From an uncultured Maricaulis sp. (GTDB lineage Bacteria; Pseudomonadota; Alphaproteobacteria; Caulobacterales; Maricaulaceae), in assembly GCF_947259345.1 (NCBI RefSeq), contig NZ_CAMYLS010000015.1, forward strand, positions 1 to 64,000: a stretch of 64,000 nt of DNA, in the 5' to 3' direction. A program made the position numbers and the translations under genes. Positions 2,832-16,145 of this stretch are shown one piece after another; position 1 is the first letter of the stretch, and every line of letters begins with the position of its first letter. The notes below the pieces were generated by a model. That model did not search any database and was not told the origin of the DNA. It was given only the letters and a program-made list of their open reading frames with translations.

Positions 2832-4253
2832 CTATTCGTCAGGCGTCGGGCTGTCTTCCGATGTCTCCCCGACAATCGCGTCCGGCTCCGTTACCGGCGG
2901 TTGAAGCGAGTCCAGCACGGCCAGGGCGAGCCCGCCCGAGCGTGAGTTTACGCCCATGGTCGCGCCGAAGCGCACAATCACCAGGTCCTGTTCCGGCATG
3001 ACATAGGCCCACTGGCCCTGGAAACCGCTCATCATGATGGTGTCGGCCGGCAGGCTGGAGCGCTCATTGGGCAGCCAGAAGCCCATCCCGTATTCGCCGT
3101 TCGAACCCGGGGTCGGCTCGGCGACGATGTCATACCAGTCCTCCGGCAGGAGGCGTTCGCCATCGACCATGCCGTCATTCATGTAGAGCAGGGCCAGGCG
3201 GGCCCAGTCATGGGCGGTGGCATACATGTAGGACGAACCCTGGAAGACGCCGTTCTCACCCGGTTCCATGATCGCGGAATAAATGCCCAGCGGTTCGAAA
3301 ATGCGCGCGCGCAGCCCGGTGACCTGTTCCCGCAAGGTGTCACCCAGCAGGCGCTGCATGGTGTCGGTCGCGAGGATGGTGTTGCCGCTCATGTACTGCC
3401 AGTGATCGCCCGGCGCGTGCAGGCGTTCGCGTGTCGCCGCATAGCGCGGCATGTCGGACTGGGTGAAGAGCATCTCCGAATTCGGGTCGGTGCCGCTATT
3501 GTCCTCGGCGATGGCCAGACCGCCGGCCATGCGCAGGAGGTGGGAGATGGTGATCTCCGACAGGCGGATATCGTCGATTTCGGCGAGGGCCGGGACAGCG
3601 CCCTCGGCATGGATGTCCAGACGGCCTTCCTCGACCAGGGCGCCAGCCAGTGTGGTCATTGTGCTCTTGGTCATCGACCAGCCGTGAAAGCGCGTCTCGC
3701 GGCTGGCGCCCGGCGCATAATGCTCGGCGACCAGGCGGCCCTGGTGCAGGACGGCGACGCCGAGTGTCTGCCGGCTGTCAGCTTCGACATTATCGAACGC
3801 GTCGGCGATGGCGGCGTCCAGTGCCTCCGTGTCGAACCATTGATCGCGGTGGGTCGCGTCGAGCTCGAGCGGGATGAAGTCCTGTTCTACCGGAACGGCC
3901 AGATCGGGGTCGAAATCCGCGCCGCCATGGACCAGCGTACAGCCCAGTCCGTCACGCCAGACGGCGCGTTGATGCCAGAACAGGCCGAGCACGGAGGATG
4001 TGACCTCGCGATTCTCCTCATCCATGTCATAGCCGATCAGACTGCCCGCATCGCCCAGGAGGGGGGCGAGATAGAAGTCATAAGCCTGATCGGACTCAAG
4101 GCCGGACACCCAGGTCAGGGAACACATCTGCTTGGCCACGATGCCGGTGCCCGAGGGCAGGTAGATCCGGCCGATCGGCGACAGGTTGAGGGCCGTGACA
4201 CCGGCGGCCAGAAGGACGGCCAGCGTGCCGCCAAGAATGTAGCGCTTCTTCAT
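2832..4253 (-). CDS. Serine hydrolase, beta-lactamase/NylB-like family
   Basis: A predicted exported or membrane-anchored serine hydrolase of the class C beta-lactamase/S12 peptidase fold. A basic start and hydrophobic segment (about residues 4-24) give a membrane anchor or uncleaved signal. The nucleophile motif is SMTK (193-196), followed by YMSGN (287-291), which matches the YxSGN form of 6-aminohexanoate-dimer hydrolase (NylB) more than the YxN of true beta-lactamases. The C-terminal tail is acidic and proline-containing. Substrate unknown: a peptide, amide or ester. It is the first of three S12-fold proteins in the window; they are not adjacent and differ in extra domains. Confidence 0.8.
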   Translation of the reverse strand: MKKRYILGGTLAVLLAAGVTALNLSPIGRIYLPSGTGIVAKQMCSLTWVSGLESDQAYDFYLAPLLGDAGSLIGYDMDEENREVTSSVLGLFWHQRAVWRDGLGCTLVHGGADFDPDLAVPVEQDFIPLELDATHRDQWFDTEALDAAIADAFDNVEADSRQTLGVAVLHQGRLVAEHYAPGASRETRFHGWSMTKSTMTTLAGALVEEGRLDIHAEGAVPALAEIDDIRLSEITISHLLRMAGGLAIAEDNSGTDPNSEMLFTQSDMPRYAATRERLHAPGDHWQYMSGNTILATDTMQRLLGDTLREQVTGLRARIFEPLGIYSAIMEPGENGVFQGSSYMYATAHDWARLALLYMNDGMVDGERLLPEDWYDIVAEPTPGSNGEYGMGFWLPNERSSLPADTIMMSGFQGQWAYVMPEQDLVIVRFGATMGVNSRSGGLALAVLDSLQPPVTEPDAIVGETSEDSPTPDE

Positions 4254-5645: not shown

Positions 5646-6305
5646 TCAGAGATAGCGCCAGACCTTGGCCTGCCGGACTTCGCGGTCCTCGAGGTCCCGC
5701 GTGACCGGGACGGTGTATTCGGCCAGACGCTCGAGCTTGTCCTGGGGCAGAAAGGAACGGCCGGGATCGCCGATCAGCACGGTCGCACCGCGCGTGTTGA
5801 GCGTCTCCAGCCAGCCCCCGATCAGGCGCGCCGGCTCTGCTTCGTAGAAGACATCGCCGGCGAGGATTGCATCCCAGCCCTCATCCGTGCCGACCAGATC
5901 ATCCAGCCGGGCCGTCAGCGCGACCCCGTTGGCCGCCGCATTGCTCTCGATCGCGGCGATGGCAAACGCGTCCAGCTCGCAGGCCTCGACCGAGCTGGCA
6001 CCGGCCTTCTTGGCAGCGATGCCGGACACGGCCCCCCCGGCGGCAAAGTCCAAAACGCGCTTGCCGGCGACGATGTCGGGATTGTCGAGGCAATAGCGGG
6101 CGAGTGCCTGTCCGCCGGCCCAGGCAAAGGCCCAGAAGGGCGGTGGCAGGCCCATTTCGCCCAGCGCTTCCTCCGTCTGTTCCCAGATGGCCACCGTCTC
6201 GACGGCCAAATGGAGCGAGACCTCCGGCACCAGGGGCGGGGCCATCAGGGCGCAGGTCTGCCGGATGAAAGCGTGCGGATCGTCGAGCCGGGGGGTGCCC
6301 GTCAT
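5646..6305 (-). CDS. Class I methyltransferase, ETFB-lysine/NNT1-like
   Basis: A 219-residue SAM-dependent methyltransferase. The motif I region VLDFAAGGAVSGIAA is at 84-98. The preceding PPFWAFAWAGGQALARY (55-71) is characteristic of the group related to electron-transfer-flavoprotein beta-subunit lysine methyltransferase and predicted 'nicotinamide N-methyltransferase' (COG3897). The post-motif segment AGDVFYE (about residues 168-174) fits the catalytic DxFY-type loop. A ribosome-binding site AGGAAG precedes ATG 6305. The most likely role is protein lysine methylation, perhaps of ETF, which would suit the acyl-CoA enzyme nearby; this is inference. Confidence 0.75.
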   Translation of the reverse strand: MTGTPRLDDPHAFIRQTCALMAPPLVPEVSLHLAVETVAIWEQTEEALGEMGLPPPFWAFAWAGGQALARYCLDNPDIVAGKRVLDFAAGGAVSGIAAKKAGASSVEACELDAFAIAAIESNAAANGVALTARLDDLVGTDEGWDAILAGDVFYEAEPARLIGGWLETLNTRGATVLIGDPGRSFLPQDKLERLAEYTVPVTRDLEDREVRQAKVWRYL

Positions 6306-6751: not shown

Positions 6752-6796
6752 GGGGACAGGTAGAATGAACGCGTGGCGCTAATTCTACCTGTCCCC
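6752..6796. repeat. REP-like hairpin, GGGGACAGGTAGAAT inverted repeat
   Basis: Perfect 15-bp arms (6752-6766 and 6782-6796) with a 15-base loop between convergent genes. The GGGGACAG…CTGTCCCC signature is like repetitive extragenic palindromes linked to REP-associated transposases in many proteobacteria (recalled). It may also act as a bidirectional terminator for the VOC and M16 genes, although no U-tract follows. Confidence 0.65.
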
Positions 6797-6809: not shown

Positions 6810-8219
6810 CTATTCCCGGATCTCGGCCGCGGCGACTTCCGGCAAGGCGCGGACGTCCTCGCTGATCACGGACAGGTCACCGACAAGGACCAGAACCATC
6901 TGGTCGAGCGGCAGGTATTCGCGCGCCATGGCCGAAATATCCTCATCGCTGACGGCGAGGATATTGGGCACATACTGGTCGAGATAATCATCCGGCAGAC
7001 CATAGAGGTCGCGCTGGCCGAGCTGGTTGATCAGCCCGCCGGTCGAGGCGTTCTGCAGGATGAAGATGCCGGCCAGCCAGTTTCGCATGCCGCCGGCCTC
7101 GTCGGCCGGCGGGGTCTCGTTCTGCAGGCGCGTGATCTCGTTGAAGGTCTCACGCAGGGCGGCAGCCGTGTCGGCGGCGGTGACATCGGCATTGAAGGTC
7201 CAGAAGCCGCCATCCATCGTCCAGGTTTCACCGGATCCGGGCGAATAGGTATAGCCCTTGTCCTCGCGCAGATTGCGGGTGAGGCGTGAGGTGAAGGATC
7301 CGCCGAGGAGCGCATTCATGACCTCGAAGGCCGGCGCGTCCTCATCGCCAATCCCCATGATGGGGAAGCCGAGGCGGATGGTGGTCTGCGGGGCGCCCGG
7401 ACGATCGATCAATTGCACGATCGGACCGGCGCTGGCCGGGGCGCTGGCCGCCGTGTCGGCCGTGCCGCGCGCCCAGTCACCGAAGGCCTCGCGAATAGCG
7501 CTTTCCATGGCGGCTTCGTCGAAATGACCAGCGACATAGAGGCGTGACCGGCCGGCGCCGTAATGAGCGTCGTAGAAGGCCTGCACATCGGCCATCTCAT
7601 AGCCGCGCAACTGCTCTTCACGGGGCAGGGTATTGCCGTAGGGATGGTCCGGACCGAACAGGATGCGGCGATAGGCTTCGGTCGCGATGGAGCCCGGCTG
7701 GGCGCGCTGAACATCCACATCACGCACCAGATTGGCGCGCACCCGCTCGAACTCGGCCTCGTCGAAATTCGGACGCAGGGCGAGATCGGCCAGGAGGGCG
7801 ACTGCGTCGGGACCGTACTGGCTGAGCACGCCCGTGCCGATATTGGTCGTATGGCGACCGACACCGACATTGAGCGCGCCACCCATGGCGGCAATCTCGG
7901 TAGCGACCTCTTGAGCCGAGCGTCCGCCCGCGCCTTCCTCCATCATCGCGCCGGTCAGGTCGGCGAGAAAGGTCTGGGCGCCATCATCGAGATTGGCGGC
8001 GCGGACTTGCAGGGAAAGGTTCACCGTCGGCGCCAGGCCGAAGGGGATGAAGGTCACCTCCAGCCCGTTATCGAGCGTAAAATTACGGGTTTCCGGCAGT
8101 TCAAAAGGAACCGGTTCACCGATGGGCGGTTGCTCGCTGGGTTGCTGGGCCTGGGCGAGGCTTGGCAGGAGGGCGAGGCTGGCAGCCGACAGGGCCGCCT
8201 GGAAAAGTCGAATGGTCAT
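6810..8219 (-). CDS. M16 peptidase family protein, inactive-type subunit (copy 1)
   Basis: A secreted M16 (pitrilysin-like) protein of about 469 residues with signal peptide MTIRLFQAALSAASLALLPSLAQA. The zinc motif HxxEH is absent: at the matching place it reads LADLTGAMMEEG, where the active partner has AHLFEHLMFAG. It is therefore predicted to be the non-catalytic half of a two-subunit peptidase, with the product of 8246-9676 as its partner. The start is ATG 8219 with AAGGA upstream; a GTG overlapping the previous stop (8249) is also in frame and would give translational coupling. It is paralogous to 9766-11181. Confidence 0.88.
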   Translation of the reverse strand: MTIRLFQAALSAASLALLPSLAQAQQPSEQPPIGEPVPFELPETRNFTLDNGLEVTFIPFGLAPTVNLSLQVRAANLDDGAQTFLADLTGAMMEEGAGGRSAQEVATEIAAMGGALNVGVGRHTTNIGTGVLSQYGPDAVALLADLALRPNFDEAEFERVRANLVRDVDVQRAQPGSIATEAYRRILFGPDHPYGNTLPREEQLRGYEMADVQAFYDAHYGAGRSRLYVAGHFDEAAMESAIREAFGDWARGTADTAASAPASAGPIVQLIDRPGAPQTTIRLGFPIMGIGDEDAPAFEVMNALLGGSFTSRLTRNLREDKGYTYSPGSGETWTMDGGFWTFNADVTAADTAAALRETFNEITRLQNETPPADEAGGMRNWLAGIFILQNASTGGLINQLGQRDLYGLPDDYLDQYVPNILAVSDEDISAMAREYLPLDQMVLVLVGDLSVISEDVRALPEVAAAEIRE

Positions 8220-8245
8220 CTGTCTCATTCCTTCCGGGGTCCTGG

Positions 8246-9676
8246 TCACTCAGTGCCGTCTTCGTCCGCGAGGCGGACTTCGAGCACGGTGCGATTGGTC
8301 GGGCGCAGATAGTCCTGCGCGGTGGCGCGGATCAATTCGGGCGTCACCTGTTCAAAGCCTTCAGTGATGCGATTGATCCGGCTGGGGTCGTCATCAAACA
8401 TCGCGAAGGAGGCCAGAAGGTCGACCAGGCCGAAGCGGGTGGCGGTGTCCACCGTACCGTAGAAATCCGACAACAGCTTGGTGCGGGCGCGTTCCAGATC
8501 CGCCTCACTGACCAGATCCGTGCGCACGCCTTCAATCGTGGCATCCAGCGACGTCATGACGTCGGAGACGGTGAACTCGCTGTCGTGGATCATGCCGACC
8601 GTCCACAGCATCGGGCCGTTATAGTTGAAGGCATTGCCGAGCAGGTTGATGCCGCCGAAGACGCCGGAGGCGAAGCCTTCCTCATTGACCAGGGACTGGT
8701 TGAGGCGGCTGTCATCGCCCTGGACCAGCAATTGGTCGATCAGGATCATGGCGTAGTATTCCGGCGTGCCGCGCTCGGGCATGTGATAGCCGACGGCGAG
8801 GGCGGGCTGATTGGCCAGCTCATCTTCGCGAACGGCGAATTTCTCTTCTTCCTGGCGCGGTTCCGACGTGTCGATCTCGGGCAGGGCGTCCCCGGCGGGA
8901 ATGGCGGAGAAATACTGCTCGATCGTCGCCAGCGTCTCGTCGCGATCAATGGCGCCGGCGACCACGATGACGGCGTTATTGGGGGCGTAGAACTGGTCGA
9001 AGAAGGCCTGGGCGTCTTCCAGGCTGGCGGCGTCGAGATCGGTCAGATCGCCGTAGAAATTGTGCGAATTGTGCCAGTTTTCATTGGCCGCCATCGGCAG
9101 GTCGATCCAGATCCAGCCGCCATAGGGCTGGTTGATCACATTGACGAAGACCTCATTGCGCACGACCTCGCGCTGATTGTCGAGCTGGGCTTCGTCCAAA
9201 TTGGGCGCCCGCATGCGGTCAGCCTCGGCCCACAGCACCGCTGTCAGGGCATTGGAGGGCACGACCTCATAGTAATTGGTGAAGTCATAGCGGGTGGAGC
9301 CATTATTCACGCCCCCGGACCCGTAGATCAGCGTGTCGAAGGCGCCATGTGGCAGATTTTCCGACCCGGCGAACATCAGGTGTTCGAACAGATGCGCAAA
9401 ACCGGTACGGCCGCGCGGCTCATTGCGGAAACCGACGCCGTAATAGACAGCCACGGTCGCGGTCGGCACGCTGTCATCCTCGGACAGGACAACACGCAGC
9501 CCATTGTCGAGCTCGTGATAGCTGACATCGACGGTGAAATCGGTCGAGAGGCTGGTCTCGGCCATGTTTGCCGGTGCCGTATCGGTTGATGCCGTGTCAT
9601 CCGGCGCGCTCGCCGGCTGGCAGGCCGCCAGGAGGAGTGCGCCGAATCCGGTCGCCAAGCCTCTGTAAACTTTCAT
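8246..9676 (-). CDS. M16 zinc peptidase, lipoprotein, active-type subunit (copy 1)
   Basis: Predicted zinc metallopeptidase with HLFEH (residues 95-99) as zinc-binding and catalytic motif, and Glu175 in VVRNEVF as the third zinc ligand. The N terminus (MKVYRGLATGFGALLLAAC) is a lipoprotein signal with Cys19 as the lipidated residue, so it acts at a periplasm-facing or surface membrane. The start is ATG 9676 with GGGGA upstream. The gene is followed immediately by the inactive-type partner (6810-8219), the usual arrangement for heterodimeric M16 enzymes. It probably degrades peptides; the substrate is unknown. It is paralogous to 11181-12587. Confidence 0.9.
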   Translation of the reverse strand: MKVYRGLATGFGALLLAACQPASAPDDTASTDTAPANMAETSLSTDFTVDVSYHELDNGLRVVLSEDDSVPTATVAVYYGVGFRNEPRGRTGFAHLFEHLMFAGSENLPHGAFDTLIYGSGGVNNGSTRYDFTNYYEVVPSNALTAVLWAEADRMRAPNLDEAQLDNQREVVRNEVFVNVINQPYGGWIWIDLPMAANENWHNSHNFYGDLTDLDAASLEDAQAFFDQFYAPNNAVIVVAGAIDRDETLATIEQYFSAIPAGDALPEIDTSEPRQEEEKFAVREDELANQPALAVGYHMPERGTPEYYAMILIDQLLVQGDDSRLNQSLVNEEGFASGVFGGINLLGNAFNYNGPMLWTVGMIHDSEFTVSDVMTSLDATIEGVRTDLVSEADLERARTKLLSDFYGTVDTATRFGLVDLLASFAMFDDDPSRINRITEGFEQVTPELIRATAQDYLRPTNRTVLEVRLADEDGTE

Positions 9677-9765
9677 GATATCCCCGCTCGTGACTGCAAT
9701 AGCCGTGTTGGAAGACTGTATCAAAGCCCTCCCGCTCGAGCGGGTCAAACTGTCATGACGAAGAT

Positions 9766-11181
9766 TTAATCCGTCGGGGCGGCCTCGTGGCGGACAATAT
9801 CGGCCAGGCGCAGGCTGGGCATGCCGCGGATATCATCCTCGATCCGGTCCAGATCGCCGACGATAACGAGGGTGAAGCGGTCATCGCGCAGATAGGCCCG
9901 GGCGATGGCGCTCACTTCGCGATCGCTGGTGCCCATCAGGGTCTGGACACGCTGGTCCAGATAATCGTGATCGAGACCGAAACTGTCCCTCAAGCCGAGA
10001 TGTTCCAGCAGGCCGTAGGATGATCCCGCCGACATCACGAAACGGCTCGCGAGCCAGCGGCGCGTGCTCTCCATGTCCCAGTCGTACTGGCGCAGCGACC
10101 CGATGGTGTCGAAGACCGCGGTCAGGGCGAGCAGGGTGCGCGGTGTGTCGATATCATCGGTATAGGTCCACATGCCGCCGCCACGGGTCCATTGCACGAA
10201 GCTGGTCGGCGAGTAGGACCAGCCGGCCTCGCGCATACGCGAGGCGATGGCGCCGCCCAGTGCCGCATCCATGATCGAGATCGCAGTGGCATCCTTCGAG
10301 ATCACGCTGCCGACCGGGTAGACAAGGTGAACCGTGCTTTGTGGCGCGCCAGGGCGGTTCACGAGGTGGACGACCGGGCCACGTGCCGGCACCGCTTGCG
10401 GGGCGGCATCCGGGGCACCGCGCGGCCAGTCACCGAAGGCGTCGCGCACAGCGGCCTCCATCTCCTGCACATCAAAACGGCCGGCGATGTAGAGATGGGT
10501 TCGCCCGGCGCTGAAATGGCGGGCGTGAAAATCGCGAACATCCTCGACCGAATAGCGGTCGATCTGGCCCGGCCGCGGCAGACCGAAATGATAAGGATGA
10601 CCTTCCGGGAAAAGGGAATGGAAGGCCGTGACAAAGGCTTGGGTTCCCGGTTCCGTGCGGCGTCTTTCAATGTCGCGTGACATGCCGGAGCGGATGCGCT
10701 CGAGCGCCTCGGCCGGGAAGTCGGGCCGGCGCACAGCGTCGGCGATCAGATGCAGCGCCGCTTCGCCATGCTCGGCCAGGACATAGCTGCCCATCAGCGT
10801 ACTGGACTGGGTGACGGTCGTATTGAGCGAGCCGCCCATCGCCCCGAAACGGGCCCCGATCTCGGCCCGGTCCAGGCCCGCGAAGCCCTCCTCCATCATG
10901 GCGGCCGTCAGGTCGGCGATCCAGGTCTGCTCACCATCATCGATATTGCCCGCCCGTACCGAGACGATCACATCCATCGTCGGTGTCATGCCCCAGGGCA
11001 CGAAGGTGACGGTCAGACCATTCTCCAGGGTCAGGGTCTGGCTGGCGGGGAGTTCAAAGGGAATGGGCTCACCGGGCGCAGGTGGTCGCGGGCCGCGGCC
11101 CGGCTCATCGGCCACGGCCGCCAAGCTGGCCAATGCGGACAGCAGCGCGACGAAGGCGGCGAGGAGGAGGACGCGCACCAT
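9766..11181 (-). CDS. M16 peptidase family protein, inactive-type subunit (copy 2)
   Basis: A secreted M16-fold protein of about 471 residues. The hydrophobic N terminus (MVRVLLLAAFVALLSALASL) is a signal peptide. As in its paralogue at 6810-8219, the zinc site is missing: IADLTAAMMEEGFAG replaces AHLFEH. The start ATG at 11181 overlaps the stop of the upstream active-type gene (TGATG), so the two are translationally coupled and should be made in equal amounts. It is probably the structural and substrate-holding half of a heterodimer. Confidence 0.88.
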   Translation of the reverse strand: MVRVLLLAAFVALLSALASLAAVADEPGRGPRPPAPGEPIPFELPASQTLTLENGLTVTFVPWGMTPTMDVIVSVRAGNIDDGEQTWIADLTAAMMEEGFAGLDRAEIGARFGAMGGSLNTTVTQSSTLMGSYVLAEHGEAALHLIADAVRRPDFPAEALERIRSGMSRDIERRRTEPGTQAFVTAFHSLFPEGHPYHFGLPRPGQIDRYSVEDVRDFHARHFSAGRTHLYIAGRFDVQEMEAAVRDAFGDWPRGAPDAAPQAVPARGPVVHLVNRPGAPQSTVHLVYPVGSVISKDATAISIMDAALGGAIASRMREAGWSYSPTSFVQWTRGGGMWTYTDDIDTPRTLLALTAVFDTIGSLRQYDWDMESTRRWLASRFVMSAGSSYGLLEHLGLRDSFGLDHDYLDQRVQTLMGTSDREVSAIARAYLRDDRFTLVIVGDLDRIEDDIRGMPSLRLADIVRHEAAPTD

Positions 11182-12587
11182 CAATCGGCCTCTTCGGTTG
11201 CCGGTGTCGCCGCGTCAACGCCGCCAGGACGCAACTCCAGGACGGTCCGGTTCTGCGGCCTCAGCCAGGTCTGTGCGGTGCGCTGGATCAGCTCCGGGGT
11301 CACCTGCTCAAAGCCGTCCTCGATCCGGTTGATACGGCTTGGATCGTCGTCGAACAGCGCAAAGCTTGCCAAGAGATCGACTACGCCGAAGCGGGTGGAG
11401 TAGTCGAGGCTGGAATAGAATTCGGTGAGAAACTTGCTGCGCGCTGCAGCGAGCTCCTGACGGCTCACCCGGGTGGTGCGCAGAGTGTCGATCACCTGAT
11501 CAAAATCGGTTCGGACCTGATCCGACCCCACCGCATCATCATGGATGATGCTGGCGGTCCACAGCATCGGACCGTCATAATTGAACACATTGCCCAGTAG
11601 ATTGATTCCGCCGGAAATCTGGGTGCCGTAGCCGAGCTCGTCGACCAGGCGTTGGCGGAGGCGGGCATCGCCGCCGCGCACCAGGATCTGGTCGATCAGG
11701 ATCATGGCGAAATAGTCCGGCGTGCCGCGTTCGGGCATGTGATAGGCGATGGCCAGCCCCGGCTCGGTGGCCAGAGGATCGGTCATCTCCGCCCTTTTTT
11801 CTTCTGTCTGGGGCGGTTCGGAGACGTCGATTTCCGGCAGTTCGGGTCCGGTAGGAATATCGCCGAAATACTGTTGGATCGTAGCCAGCGTGTCGTCGGT
11901 ATCGAAACTGCCGGCAACAACCAGGACCGCGTTGCGCGGCGTGTAGTACTGCTCGAAGAAAGCGCGCGCCTCCTCGACCGTGGCTGCGTCGAGATCGCTC
12001 AGATCGCCATAGAAATTATGGGCATTGTGCCAATTCTCATTGGCCACCATGGGCAGGTCGATCCAGGTCCAGTCGCCATAGGCCTGGTTCTGGACATTGA
12101 CGAATATCTCATTGCGGACGACGTCGCGCTCGCGCTGGAAGATTTGCGCATTGATCGTTGGCGCCGCCATGCGATCGGCCTCGGCCCACAGGAAGGCGTC
12201 CAGGGCATTGGCCGGAACCACGCCGAAATAATTGGTGAAATCCAGCCGTGTCGAGCCATTGGCGATGCCGCCCATGCCCGAGATGAAGTAGTAGAAGACC
12301 GATTCCGGCAGGTTCTCCGATCCGGCGAAGAAGACGTGCTCGAACAGATGGGCAAAGCCGGTGCGGCCGCGCGGCTCATTGCGATAGCCGACCCCGTAAT
12401 AGACGGCGACCGTGGCGGTCGGCACGGTATGATCCTCCGCCAGCACGACCCGCAGGCCATTCTCGAGCGTCTCATAGCGCACCGGAATGTGCAGTTCGCC
12501 TTGCAGGGCAGGCGTCGATTGGGCACTGGCCAGTCCGGCACACAGGCTCAGGGCGAGCCCGGCAAAAGCCCGGAAAACAAGACGCAT
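11181..12587 (-). CDS. M16 zinc peptidase, active-type subunit (copy 2)
   Basis: Predicted zinc metallopeptidase with HLFEH at residues 80-84 and the downstream ligand Glu160 in RDVVRNE. The signal peptide MRLVFRAFAGLALSLCAGLASAQ has an Ala-x-Ala-type cleavage site and no lipobox, unlike the active subunit of copy 1, so this version should be soluble in the periplasm or secreted. The start is ATG 12587 (ATG 12596 is possible). It heads the four-gene M16 run 12587→6810. The sequence is closely similar to 8246-9676 through the catalytic region, which supports duplication of a two-gene unit. Confidence 0.9.
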   Translation of the reverse strand: MRLVFRAFAGLALSLCAGLASAQSTPALQGELHIPVRYETLENGLRVVLAEDHTVPTATVAVYYGVGYRNEPRGRTGFAHLFEHVFFAGSENLPESVFYYFISGMGGIANGSTRLDFTNYFGVVPANALDAFLWAEADRMAAPTINAQIFQRERDVVRNEIFVNVQNQAYGDWTWIDLPMVANENWHNAHNFYGDLSDLDAATVEEARAFFEQYYTPRNAVLVVAGSFDTDDTLATIQQYFGDIPTGPELPEIDVSEPPQTEEKRAEMTDPLATEPGLAIAYHMPERGTPDYFAMILIDQILVRGGDARLRQRLVDELGYGTQISGGINLLGNVFNYDGPMLWTASIIHDDAVGSDQVRTDFDQVIDTLRTTRVSRQELAAARSKFLTEFYSSLDYSTRFGVVDLLASFALFDDDPSRINRIEDGFEQVTPELIQRTAQTWLRPQNRTVLELRPGGVDAATPATEEAD

Positions 12588-12670: not shown

Positions 12671-13597
12671 TCAAATCAGGGCGCCGGTCATCAGCGTCGC
12701 GACAAGCAGCAGGCCGCTGACCCGGTTCGATTTGAACAGGGTGAGGCAACGCTCCCCATTGTCGATATCGAGGCGGCGAACCTGGTTGAACAGATGCGCG
12801 GTGTAGAGCGTGAAGGGGATGACGATCCAGGGCGAGGCCTGGCTCAACCAGATCGCCAGGGCGACCAGGATTGCATTCGCGCCGTAAAAGCCGGCAACCC
12901 AGTATTGCGAGCTCTCACCGAACAGGCGGGCTGTCGACTTGACCCCGACCAGGGCGTCATCCTCGCTGTCCTGGTGCGCGTAGATCGTGTCATAGCCCAG
13001 CGTCCACAGGACGCAGGCGGCATAGAGCGCGATCAACACGGCGTCGATCCGGCCGGTGGCGGCGACATAGGCGACCGGAAGGCCCCAATTGAAGGTCAGG
13101 CCGAGCCAGGCCTGGGGCCACCAGGTGATGCGCTTCATGAAGGGGTAGGCGGCGACCAGCAGTAGCGAGGCCAGGCCGACCGCGATGGCGAATAGCGGCA
13201 ATTGCAGCAGCACGACCAGGCCGACCAGGGCTTGTCCGGTGAGGAAAAGCCAGGCCTCCTTGACCGTCACTGTTCCGGCCGCCAACGGCCGGTCGGCGGT
13301 GCGCGCGACGCGGGCATCGAGCTCGCGGTCGATGATGTCGTTATAGGTACAGCCGGCCCCGCGCATGGCGACCGCCCCGATGGCGAACAGCACGGCCAGC
13401 CACAGATCGTGCACGGACAGGCCGGTCCCGATCCGCGCCGCCATCAGCCCCATCCAGCAGGGCAGGGCCAGCAGCCAGAAACCGATGGGCCGGTCATAGC
13501 GGGCCAGACGCAGATAGGGGCGCAGGGCGAGCGGCGCTCGGTCGACCCAGGATGTTGGCAGGCTGTCGGCGACCCGACGATCGAAATTCAGTTGCAT
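12671..13597 (-). CDS. ubiA: 4-hydroxybenzoate polyprenyltransferase UbiA
   Basis: An integral membrane prenyltransferase that joins the polyprenyl tail to 4-hydroxybenzoate in ubiquinone synthesis. It has 308 residues and about eight hydrophobic helices. Both aspartate-rich magnesium/diphosphate motifs are intact: NDIIDRELD (86-94) and DSEDD (210-214), the latter in YAHQDSEDDALVGVKSTA. The start was placed at ATG 13597; the frame runs open further upstream without coding character. It is divergent from rsmE, with about 100 bases between. UbiD, the next enzyme acting on its product, is encoded at 664-2172. Confidence 0.93.
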   Translation of the reverse strand: MQLNFDRRVADSLPTSWVDRAPLALRPYLRLARYDRPIGFWLLALPCWMGLMAARIGTGLSVHDLWLAVLFAIGAVAMRGAGCTYNDIIDRELDARVARTADRPLAAGTVTVKEAWLFLTGQALVGLVVLLQLPLFAIAVGLASLLLVAAYPFMKRITWWPQAWLGLTFNWGLPVAYVAATGRIDAVLIALYAACVLWTLGYDTIYAHQDSEDDALVGVKSTARLFGESSQYWVAGFYGANAILVALAIWLSQASPWIVIPFTLYTAHLFNQVRRLDIDNGERCLTLFKSNRVSGLLLVATLMTGALI

Positions 13598-13696
13598 CAA
13601 GGGTGTGTGGCAAAGCCTGACGGCCAATTCAAGGCGCGAGTGCGTCGCGGGCTGCGGGACTTGACGTCGCGGGGCGGCGCGGCCAAAGCGAAAGGC

Positions 13697-14471: not shown

Positions 14472-16145
14472 TCAATCCGCCCGGACCAGATCGAATTCCG
14501 ATCCGTAGAGATTGATCCGCACGCGATCGCCAGTTTCCGACAGAATCAGCGAGATCGGAGCGCTGCGCTGGAAGTAGGTGCGAGGCCCGGAGCGATGGAT
14601 CGCCGCCGGTGGCTGCCCGGGCAATTGCAGGGTCAGCCCGTCATCCTTCGCCCGGATGGTGAAAATGTCACCTGATGCCATTTCCCAGCGCCCGACCAGG
14701 CTGCGGCTTTCCTCCGGGTTCAGCGGCGTCGAGACCTGTATGCCTTCCAGAGCCCCGACGTCACGTTGGGCGACCCGGCTGTCCAATAACGGACCGACAT
14801 ACGTCAACACGCTCCCGTCAGCCTCGGGCGATGCGGTGAATTGCAGATGGGCGAGGCTGTCGGGCCAGTACAGCAGCCGTCCCCCCGCCCAGGCCAGTTC
14901 TCGCCAGCGGCCATTGTCGAGATTGTAGCGGATGCCGTCTTGCACATGCAGTTGCAGGAGGCTGCCATCCTCCAGCCGGTAGCGCCCCTCGAAGGGCCGC
15001 CAATAGGCCTCGTCCAGCGCCTGTTCGGCAAAGTCCGGGACCGGCTGACCGGCGAGATCTGCCAGGATGCGGCAGGCCGAGGTGGTGACATTGGGTAGGT
15101 AATAGCCGTTCGAGAGGATGGCCACGGCGCGCCCGGAGTCCGGCAGATACATCCAGACTGATTGGAAGCCATTGATCGAACCGGTGTGCCAGATGGCGCG
15201 TTCGCCGAGAAACTCTCCGACATTGAAACCAAGCCCATAGCCGGTTTCCTCGTTGTCTGGCGTCGTGCGGCTTTGCCAGGCGCTCGCGAGCGTGTCCGGA
15301 CGCGCGAGGCGGTTGTCGCGCAGGGCCTGGGTGAAGGCCAGCATGTCCTCGGCCGACGCCATCAGCGAACCCGCACCATGAGCGAGGCTGGTCTCGGCGG
15401 TGATTGTGTTGACGGTGGTATCGCCGTCATGGTCATAGCCCGCTGCCCGACGCGGTATGATGGCGGCCTGTCGGTCGTAGTGCGCATCGTCCATGCCCGC
15501 CGGATCGAAAATTCGCTCGTTCAGCACGGTTTCATAGGGGCGCCCTTGCGGATCGCGCGCGGCGACAAGCTGGGCCAGCAGGACATAGTTGAAGTTCGAA
15601 TAAGCCCATCGCTGACCGGGCTCGAACTGCAGTTCGGCGTCCGCCATCAGTGCGACAATGGCGTCAGGCGCAATTGGGTTGCGCATGATCTGGGGGATGG
15701 AGGGCAGGGCGAAATGGTCAGGCAGGCCAGACATGTGGCTCAGCAGGTCGCGGACGCTGGGCGCGCCGAGCTGATCCGGCAGGTCCGGCAGGTAGTGGCC
15801 TACGGGTTGACCGAGGTCGAGCCGACCCTCCTCTGCCAATTGCAGGACAGCCAGGGCCGTCAGGGGCTTGCTGATGGAGCCGATCCGGAAGGACGTGTCA
15901 GTCGTGTTCGGCTGCTGCCACTCGATATCGGCCATGCCGTAGGCGGATAGCGAGGTGGTGTCTCCATCCATCACCATGATCGCCGCGCCCGCATTGGTGC
16001 CACCATACGTGTTTTCCATGAAGGCGTCGGCGCGATCGAGGCTGTCGGCAAGCTGTGTGCAGGCGAAGGCGTTTGGCACGATCAGGGCCAGGACGAACGC
16101 GGCGCCGGCGGCGAGATTGCGGGGGCTGTTGGAATGGCGGCTCAT
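14472..16145 (-). CDS. Serine hydrolase, class C beta-lactamase fold with C-terminal domain
   Basis: A 557-residue secreted S12-type hydrolase. The signal peptide spans about residues 1-28 (…AFVLALIVPNAFA). The catalytic triad motifs are SISK (90-93), YSN (182-184) and HTG in WHTGSINGF. After the roughly 350-residue catalytic domain comes a beta-rich tail (about 370-557, FEGRYRLEDGSLLQLHV and a repeat-like VGRWEMASGDIF) resembling the lipocalin-like extra domains of this family. The start codon overlaps the stop of the upstream MarR gene (ATGA), so the two form a coupled operon. It probably hydrolyses D-amino-acid peptides or esters. Confidence 0.85.
   Translation of the reverse strand: MSRHSNSPRNLAAGAAFVLALIVPNAFACTQLADSLDRADAFMENTYGGTNAGAAIMVMDGDTTSLSAYGMADIEWQQPNTTDTSFRIGSISKPLTALAVLQLAEEGRLDLGQPVGHYLPDLPDQLGAPSVRDLLSHMSGLPDHFALPSIPQIMRNPIAPDAIVALMADAELQFEPGQRWAYSNFNYVLLAQLVAARDPQGRPYETVLNERIFDPAGMDDAHYDRQAAIIPRRAAGYDHDGDTTVNTITAETSLAHGAGSLMASAEDMLAFTQALRDNRLARPDTLASAWQSRTTPDNEETGYGLGFNVGEFLGERAIWHTGSINGFQSVWMYLPDSGRAVAILSNGYYLPNVTTSACRILADLAGQPVPDFAEQALDEAYWRPFEGRYRLEDGSLLQLHVQDGIRYNLDNGRWRELAWAGGRLLYWPDSLAHLQFTASPEADGSVLTYVGPLLDSRVAQRDVGALEGIQVSTPLNPEESRSLVGRWEMASGDIFTIRAKDDGLTLQLPGQPPAAIHRSGPRTYFQRSAPISLILSETGDRVRINLYGSEFDLVRAD

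Follow-up and report, generated by a model that had tools for sequence, protein, structure and literature searches.

Tandem duplication of a two-gene M16B peptidase module in Maricaulis and a remodelled R/Y loop in the helper of one copy

Four M16 genes, i.e. two pairs of an active and a helper gene, are found on the minus strand between ubiA and a methyltransferase-like gene in an uncultured Maricaulis sp. (NCBI RefSeq assembly GCF_947259345.1, contig NZ_CAMYLS010000015.1, positions 1 to 64,000 of the forward strand; this stretch of 64,000 nucleotides is called the window below). Such a locus raises the question of whether the two copies of the module, pair A (12587-9766) and pair B (9676-6810), differ only in the place where they act or also in what they do. 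The features are collected in Table 1.

Table 1. Features of the duplicated M16B module and its neighbours (window positions).
Feature	Position	Strand	Basis
UbiA prenyltransferase gene, upstream neighbour of the module	12671..13600	minus	Pfam PF01040, synteny
A-active: M16B zinc subunit, plain signal peptide, derived copy	11181..12587	minus	Pfam, alignment, no lipobox in 10/10
A-active HLFEH zinc motif	12336..12350	minus	sequence, alignment
A-active distal zinc-ligand Glu codon	12108..12110	minus	sequence, alignment
A-helper: non-catalytic M16B subunit, plain signal peptide	9766..11181	minus	Pfam, model match to SPH2682 (3amj_B)
A-helper remodelled R/Y loop (Tyr codon 10215-10213)	10207..10242	minus	95-helper alignment, AF2 model
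B-active: M16B zinc subunit, predicted lipoprotein, ancestral copy	8246..9676	minus	Pfam, lipobox
B-active lipobox LAAC	9620..9631	minus	sequence, conservation
B-active HLFEH zinc motif	9380..9394	minus	sequence, alignment
B-active distal zinc-ligand Glu codon	9152..9154	minus	sequence, alignment
B-helper: non-catalytic M16B subunit, intact R/Y pair, ancestral copy	6810..8219	minus	Pfam, PDB sequence matches 3gwb and 3amj_B
B-helper R/Y pair (Arg318 codon 7268-7266, Tyr325 codon 7247-7245)	7245..7268	minus	helper alignment, 3amj_B alignment
Methyltransferase-like gene (named from sequence alone), downstream neighbour	5646..6305	minus	synteny

An earlier, sequence-only reading of this DNA had described two active/inactive M16 pairs on the minus strand. 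All four open reading frames are present there, and in each of the chains of about 50 kDa the Peptidase_M16 (PF00675) and Peptidase_M16_C (PF05193) domains score above the curated Pfam thresholds. The same reading had seen HLFEH in the first gene of each pair and not in the second, and in agreement with this HxxEH occurs in none of the 95 aligned helper rows. The zinc residues, i.e. HxxEH and the distal Glu, are kept by the A actives (10 out of 10) and by all other active rows that have letters at these positions (88 out of 88). The overlapping starts claimed for both pairs were real in one of them. The ATG of the A-helper overlaps the stop codon of the A-active (TGATG), and all 10 A pairs offer such an overlapping start. 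For pair B, on the other hand, the GTGA overlap requires a GTG start at 8249, whereas the coordinates given in that reading use the ATG at 8219, which is 27 bases past the B-active stop. As an overlapping start is possible in 5 out of 9 Maricaulis B pairs whereas an ATG 18-28 bases past the stop is found in all nine, coupling of pair B is not established. The numbers of promoter-like (0) and terminator-like (3) sites at the module were not above those of shuffles.

Some further elements were noted around the module. Two serine beta-lactamase-family proteins (PF00144) flank the M16 region (window 2832-4253 and 14472-16145). An inverted pair of a 15-base repeat is located just downstream of the B-helper gene (window 6752-6796); the same genome has 24 half sites with at most one mismatch and 12 close inverted pairs, against 0 for the reversed control, and the exact repeat is present in only 3 of 19 genus genomes, this one included. 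It resembles a REPIN-type element, but a search of the same genome for a Y1 transposase (PF01797) found none. Another contig of this genome encodes two more M16 proteins, both of them long (open frames of 943 and 962 aa), which are separate from the module.

The relationship of the two pairs was investigated with trees of 29 active and 30 helper proteins. Pair A forms one clade with a support of 100/100 in both trees. The Maricaulis B clade is supported by 98/96 (actives) and 91/89 (helpers), and the grouping of A with Maricaulis B by 93/90 and 98/93, respectively. When 19 distant rows were added to each tree (Sphingomonas, Bacteroidota, Acidobacteriota, Myxococcota and others), A and Maricaulis B were still found together, with SH-aLRT values of 90 for the actives, which is below the starred level, and 96 for the helpers. 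A sister-group tree had been named beforehand as the refuting test of the duplication, and the pairs are sisters for both subunits. The trees thus indicate that the locus is a tandem duplication of a two-gene M16 module within Maricaulis. The proposed duplication is in this way upheld by both trees, while the accompanying reading, in which the copies differ in place alone, misses the loss of an arginine column in the A-helper (see below). Horizontal acquisition of pair A from outside the family was also considered and is not supported, as A and Maricaulis B stay together in the wider trees. Note that there are long branches within A (G011 and the G001/G012/G013 group), so that the inner order of this clade is unsure.

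The distribution of the pairs was compared at this one locus in 19 genomes, ours included, of the genus to which Maricaulis maris DSM 4734 belongs. Retention is patchy: both pairs are present in five genomes (G000, G001, G006, G015, G018), only B in five (G002, G005, G008, G014, G017), only A in five (G010, G011, G012, G013, G016) and neither in four (G003, G004, G007, G009), where ubiA directly adjoins the methyltransferase gene. On the contigs that carry both pairs (G000, G001, G018), ubiA is followed by A, then by B and then by the methyltransferase gene; G006 and G015 each have the module in pieces on two contigs, and these fit the same order. Two of the assemblies are incomplete (G008 69%, G013 65%) and their gene states were read from a contiguous locus, and in G011 the methyltransferase gene was not found, i.e. 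the downstream side of the locus was not seen. At the 14 single-pair or empty loci, a tblastn search with the four proteins (E up to 0.1) gave no clear remnants of a missing pair; the sole match besides the resident pairs covers 48 residues (E 0.019, in G016).

Outside the genus the picture is simpler. A search of 137 genomes of the family (E up to 1e-66) gave matches in 27 genomes from 5 of 19 genera, 15 of them within the genus and 12 in others. One of the latter, in G436, is a 962-aa long protein with 33% identity that is not of the two-gene kind and was set aside; the other 11 genomes have a single B-like pair each. In 10 of these genomes, which belong to two other genera, the pair is next to ubiA; for the eleventh (G452), the 11.5 kb retrieved around the pair gave no ubiA. 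Since a single B-like pair beside ubiA is the arrangement of the neighbouring genera, the polarity of the duplication can be read from this comparison: pair B is the older form, and pair A is known here only from Maricaulis. In a class-wide sample of 385 genomes (E up to 1e-66) our own genome was alone among the matches listed; this sampling was not a census, as at most four candidates were scored per genome, and relatives do occur in Sphingomonas, which belongs to the same class. On a tree of the two flanking proteins nine changes of gene state are required, in line with a single duplication after which A, B or both were lost repeatedly. The states are not clearly clustered on this tree as compared to shuffled labels (values as low in 142, 124 and 70 out of 500 shuffles for A only, A+B and none, respectively) and the base of the genus is poorly resolved in it, so the pair states could also reflect exchange between Maricaulis strains.

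The first difference between the pairs concerns the lipobox. Lipoboxes were scored with a strict regular expression in rows with a readable N terminus. The early observation that one active subunit is a lipoprotein and the other has an ordinary signal peptide extends to the genus, as the lipobox is present in 10 out of 10 readable B-active rows of Maricaulis and in 0 out of 10 A-active rows. In other genera the active subunit has a strict lipobox in 6 out of 11 cases, and the remaining five, all from the Hyphobacterium group, read LFAC, which is outside the strict pattern although its Cys ends the motif at the right place. The single active subunits at the Hyphobacterium-group loci L119, L121, L122 and L125 are of this LFAC kind. 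Given this motif, anchoring may vary even where there was no duplication, and in the wider family a simple script called both lipoprotein and non-lipoprotein actives, i.e. anchoring appears labile. The simplest reading of the pattern within the genus is that the lipobox was lost on the A branch. As the contrast holds without exception among the readable Maricaulis rows of both pairs, different locations of the A and B heterodimers can reasonably be inferred.

The second difference lies in the R/Y loop, which is the helper's part of the active site. The A-helper has a five-residue deletion in this loop that had been overlooked in the sequence-only reading. The arginine column is empty in 10 out of 10 A helpers and filled in 85 out of 85 other helpers. 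Four of these 85 rows stem from contigs that other rows already represent, and the B-active retrieved 152 loci, of which the best 80 supplied the distant rows, so that the relatives of B were sampled here and not all M16B. The tyrosine column is kept in all helpers of both groups (10/10 and 85/85). In the B-helper, Arg318 and Tyr325 are seven residues apart, and the loop that contains them aligns without gaps to SPH2682 (3amj_B). In other words, the R/Y pair as a feature of M16B helpers is present in pair B and absent in pair A, where Tyr alone is kept. In seven of the 10 A helpers an arginine stands one position closer to the tyrosine, at Tyr minus 6; those of G001, G012 and G013 have no arginine at either Tyr minus 6 or Tyr minus 7.

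The AlphaFold2 models of the two helpers (mean pLDDT 91.3 and 91.5) differ in the same region. The B-helper model has two helices (295-307 and 312-320), whereas a single uninterrupted helix spans residues 299-320 in the model of the A-helper (numbered from codon 11184). The best match of the A-helper model is 3amj_B by VIA-align (Z 37.2, rmsd 2.1, 398 aligned residues, 21% identity) and 3gwb by Foldseek, which suggests that the M16B fold is kept. We also counted the conserved columns that were lost in A, i.e. columns conserved in at least 95% of the non-A rows and lost in at least 8 out of 10 A rows. The A-active lost 5 of 117 such columns and the A-helper 15 of 62, or 14 without P31, which is an artefact of trimmed A rows. 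Seven of the 15 columns lost in the A-helper are at residues 302-324, around the R/Y loop. A gain of the R/Y pair by the A-active as compensation was considered and rejected: in all active rows the column equivalent to the arginine holds V, A, I, K or a gap, and the one equivalent to the tyrosine S, G, A, D, T, N, E or a gap.

These data bear on the idea that the pairs differ in location only, i.e. that the chemistry is the same in both, the anchoring differs, and the shifted arginine of A does the old job. The fixed lipobox contrast, the intact zinc site of A and the Tyr minus 6 arginine of most A helpers are what one would expect in that case. It is harder to reconcile with the three A helpers that have no arginine at either position, with the differing helices predicted for the A and B helpers, and with the changes in other conserved columns, which are concentrated in the helper (14/62 vs 5/117 in the actives), and we consider it unlikely. 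The loss of the arginine column suggests that pairs A and B may differ in chemistry or specificity and not just in place.

How far can an M16B enzyme depart from the canonical R/Y loop? According to the accessible part of a 2025 review (PMC12731061), M16 enzymes consist of two clam-shell halves, and substrate is bound by the R/Y pair, which also completes the active site. The same part of the review places the R/Y pair in almost all M16 and most M16B proteins, with MPP and the bc1 core proteins as exceptions; membership of M16B would thus not strictly require it. MPP alpha is, from this source, an R/Y-free helper in a working enzyme, which indicates that an M16B enzyme can dispense with the pair. 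In the review's accessible description its helices alpha9 and alpha10 are joined by a glycine-rich loop, whereas the loop of the A-helper is shortened, has no added glycines and has its flanking helices merged in the model. A literature search that mostly lacked subscription journals returned no paper on M16 peptidases or their duplication in Maricaulis, and on loss of the R/Y arginine nothing beyond this review.

The module can be set beside known heterodimers. The SPH2681/SPH2682 M16B heterodimer of Sphingomonas sp. A1 (PDB 3amj) likewise has one HxxEH and one R/Y subunit; unlike it, Maricaulis can have tandem pairs and an A-helper without the arginine column, and the identity is 21%. PqqE/YmxG of Helicobacter pylori also combines an active subunit with a non-peptidase R/Y helper, as far as the accessible part of PMC8115454 describes it. 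There, cleavage fell below that of the intact pair when the R/Y region of the helper was deleted, and about 70% of the activity was seen with the active subunit by itself. In the A-helper the R/Y region was altered in nature, while the H. pylori deletion (again from the accessible part of PMC8115454) is larger and was made in the laboratory. The two-gene M16B pairs of Sphingomonas, Hymenobacter, Pontibacter, Acidobacteria and others also have the active gene followed by the helper gene, with R/Y present, and their actives are 51-61% identical to the B-active (L124-L191 without the near relatives L125 and L132). Active and helper genes were both seen in 78 of the best 80 loci, with the active alone in the examined DNA of L183 and L185. 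Unlike in Maricaulis, no second pair was seen in these loci.

Is pair A then still under constraint? Pairwise dN/dS was calculated by the Nei-Gojobori method for 14 chosen genome pairs. The values range from 0.055 to 0.46 within A as a whole and from 0.055 to 0.20 within its subclades; those between subclades reach 0.46, with a dS near 1 or above. The range for B is 0.04 to 0.27. In the five genome pairs with both copies dN is higher in A for both subunits (e.g. 0.139 in A vs 0.054 in B for the actives of G000 and G018), and dN/dS is higher in A in 9 of 10 comparisons, the exception being the helpers of G018 and G015 (0.101 in A vs 0.114 in B). The identity of A helpers between subclades is 47%. 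The translation of 20 A frames gave no stop codon. The comparisons indicate that pair A evolves faster than B yet is conserved, and in five genomes A is present although B is missing.

Decay, in which pair A is redundant, has been losing function since the duplication and is on its way out, would account for the faster evolution of A, for the R/Y deletion in its helper and for its absence from some lineages. We find it improbable, however, given open frames throughout, dN/dS well below 1, zinc ligands kept in every A active and five genomes that have A but lack B. Moreover, the deletion is common to all 10 A helpers and is therefore old.

A mixed pairing was considered as well, where the A-active uses the B-helper and the A-helper has become a regulator, a decoy or a substrate-binding protein. 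It is in line with the M16B fold retained in the A-helper model and with the larger loss of conserved columns from the helpers than from the actives. The genomes with A only, however, have no B-helper, yet both A genes are adjacent in them with overlapping starts, and mixed pairing is very improbable in our judgement.

We lean, at slightly better than an even chance, towards two paralogous M16B heterodimers, of which B is ancestral and A is soluble, with a remodelled substrate-binding half and a different or narrower set of peptides. Pair B would combine a lipid-anchored zinc subunit with a secreted helper whose R/Y pair becomes part of the active site, i.e. it would be a membrane-anchored periplasmic peptidase of the usual kind. 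After the tandem duplication, the A-active would have lost the lipobox; it retains all zinc ligands. The five-residue deletion removed the arginine column of the A-helper and, as the models suggest, merged two helices into one. Pair A is most likely a separate, soluble periplasmic heterodimer with changed rate or specificity, in which the tyrosine is still present and the substrate would be held in another way. Export and anchoring, the pairing of A with A and of B with B, and the activity and altered specificity of A are what we infer from these features.

The Tyr minus 6 arginine in 7 of the 10 A helpers speaks against this explanation in part, as it could assume the old role. The strong divergence between the A subclades and the one comparison in which dN/dS is lower in A than in B also count against it. 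Since deletion of the R/Y region lowers cleavage in H. pylori and the active subunit alone keeps much of the activity (accessible part of PMC8115454), pair A could, by analogy, also be simply a less efficient enzyme or one in which the active subunit takes the lead. A more far-reaching version of our preferred explanation is put forward tentatively and with more doubt than belief: pair A would be a working M16B heterodimer without the R/Y arginine, and a single five-residue deletion would have turned a broad peptide degrader into a peptidase of new specificity, in parallel to MPP.

The two-gene M16B module is common and its heterodimers are well described, so a tandem duplication in one genus is in itself a modest finding. 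The part worth following is the helper, which lost a column that all other helpers of this sample keep, while the zinc subunit stayed intact. A helper that lacks the arginine column beside an intact zinc subunit, next to an unaltered sister pair and with natural strains that have either pair alone, makes a ready-made comparison, and comparing A with B could show what the helper contributes and how the specificity of M16 peptidases shifts.
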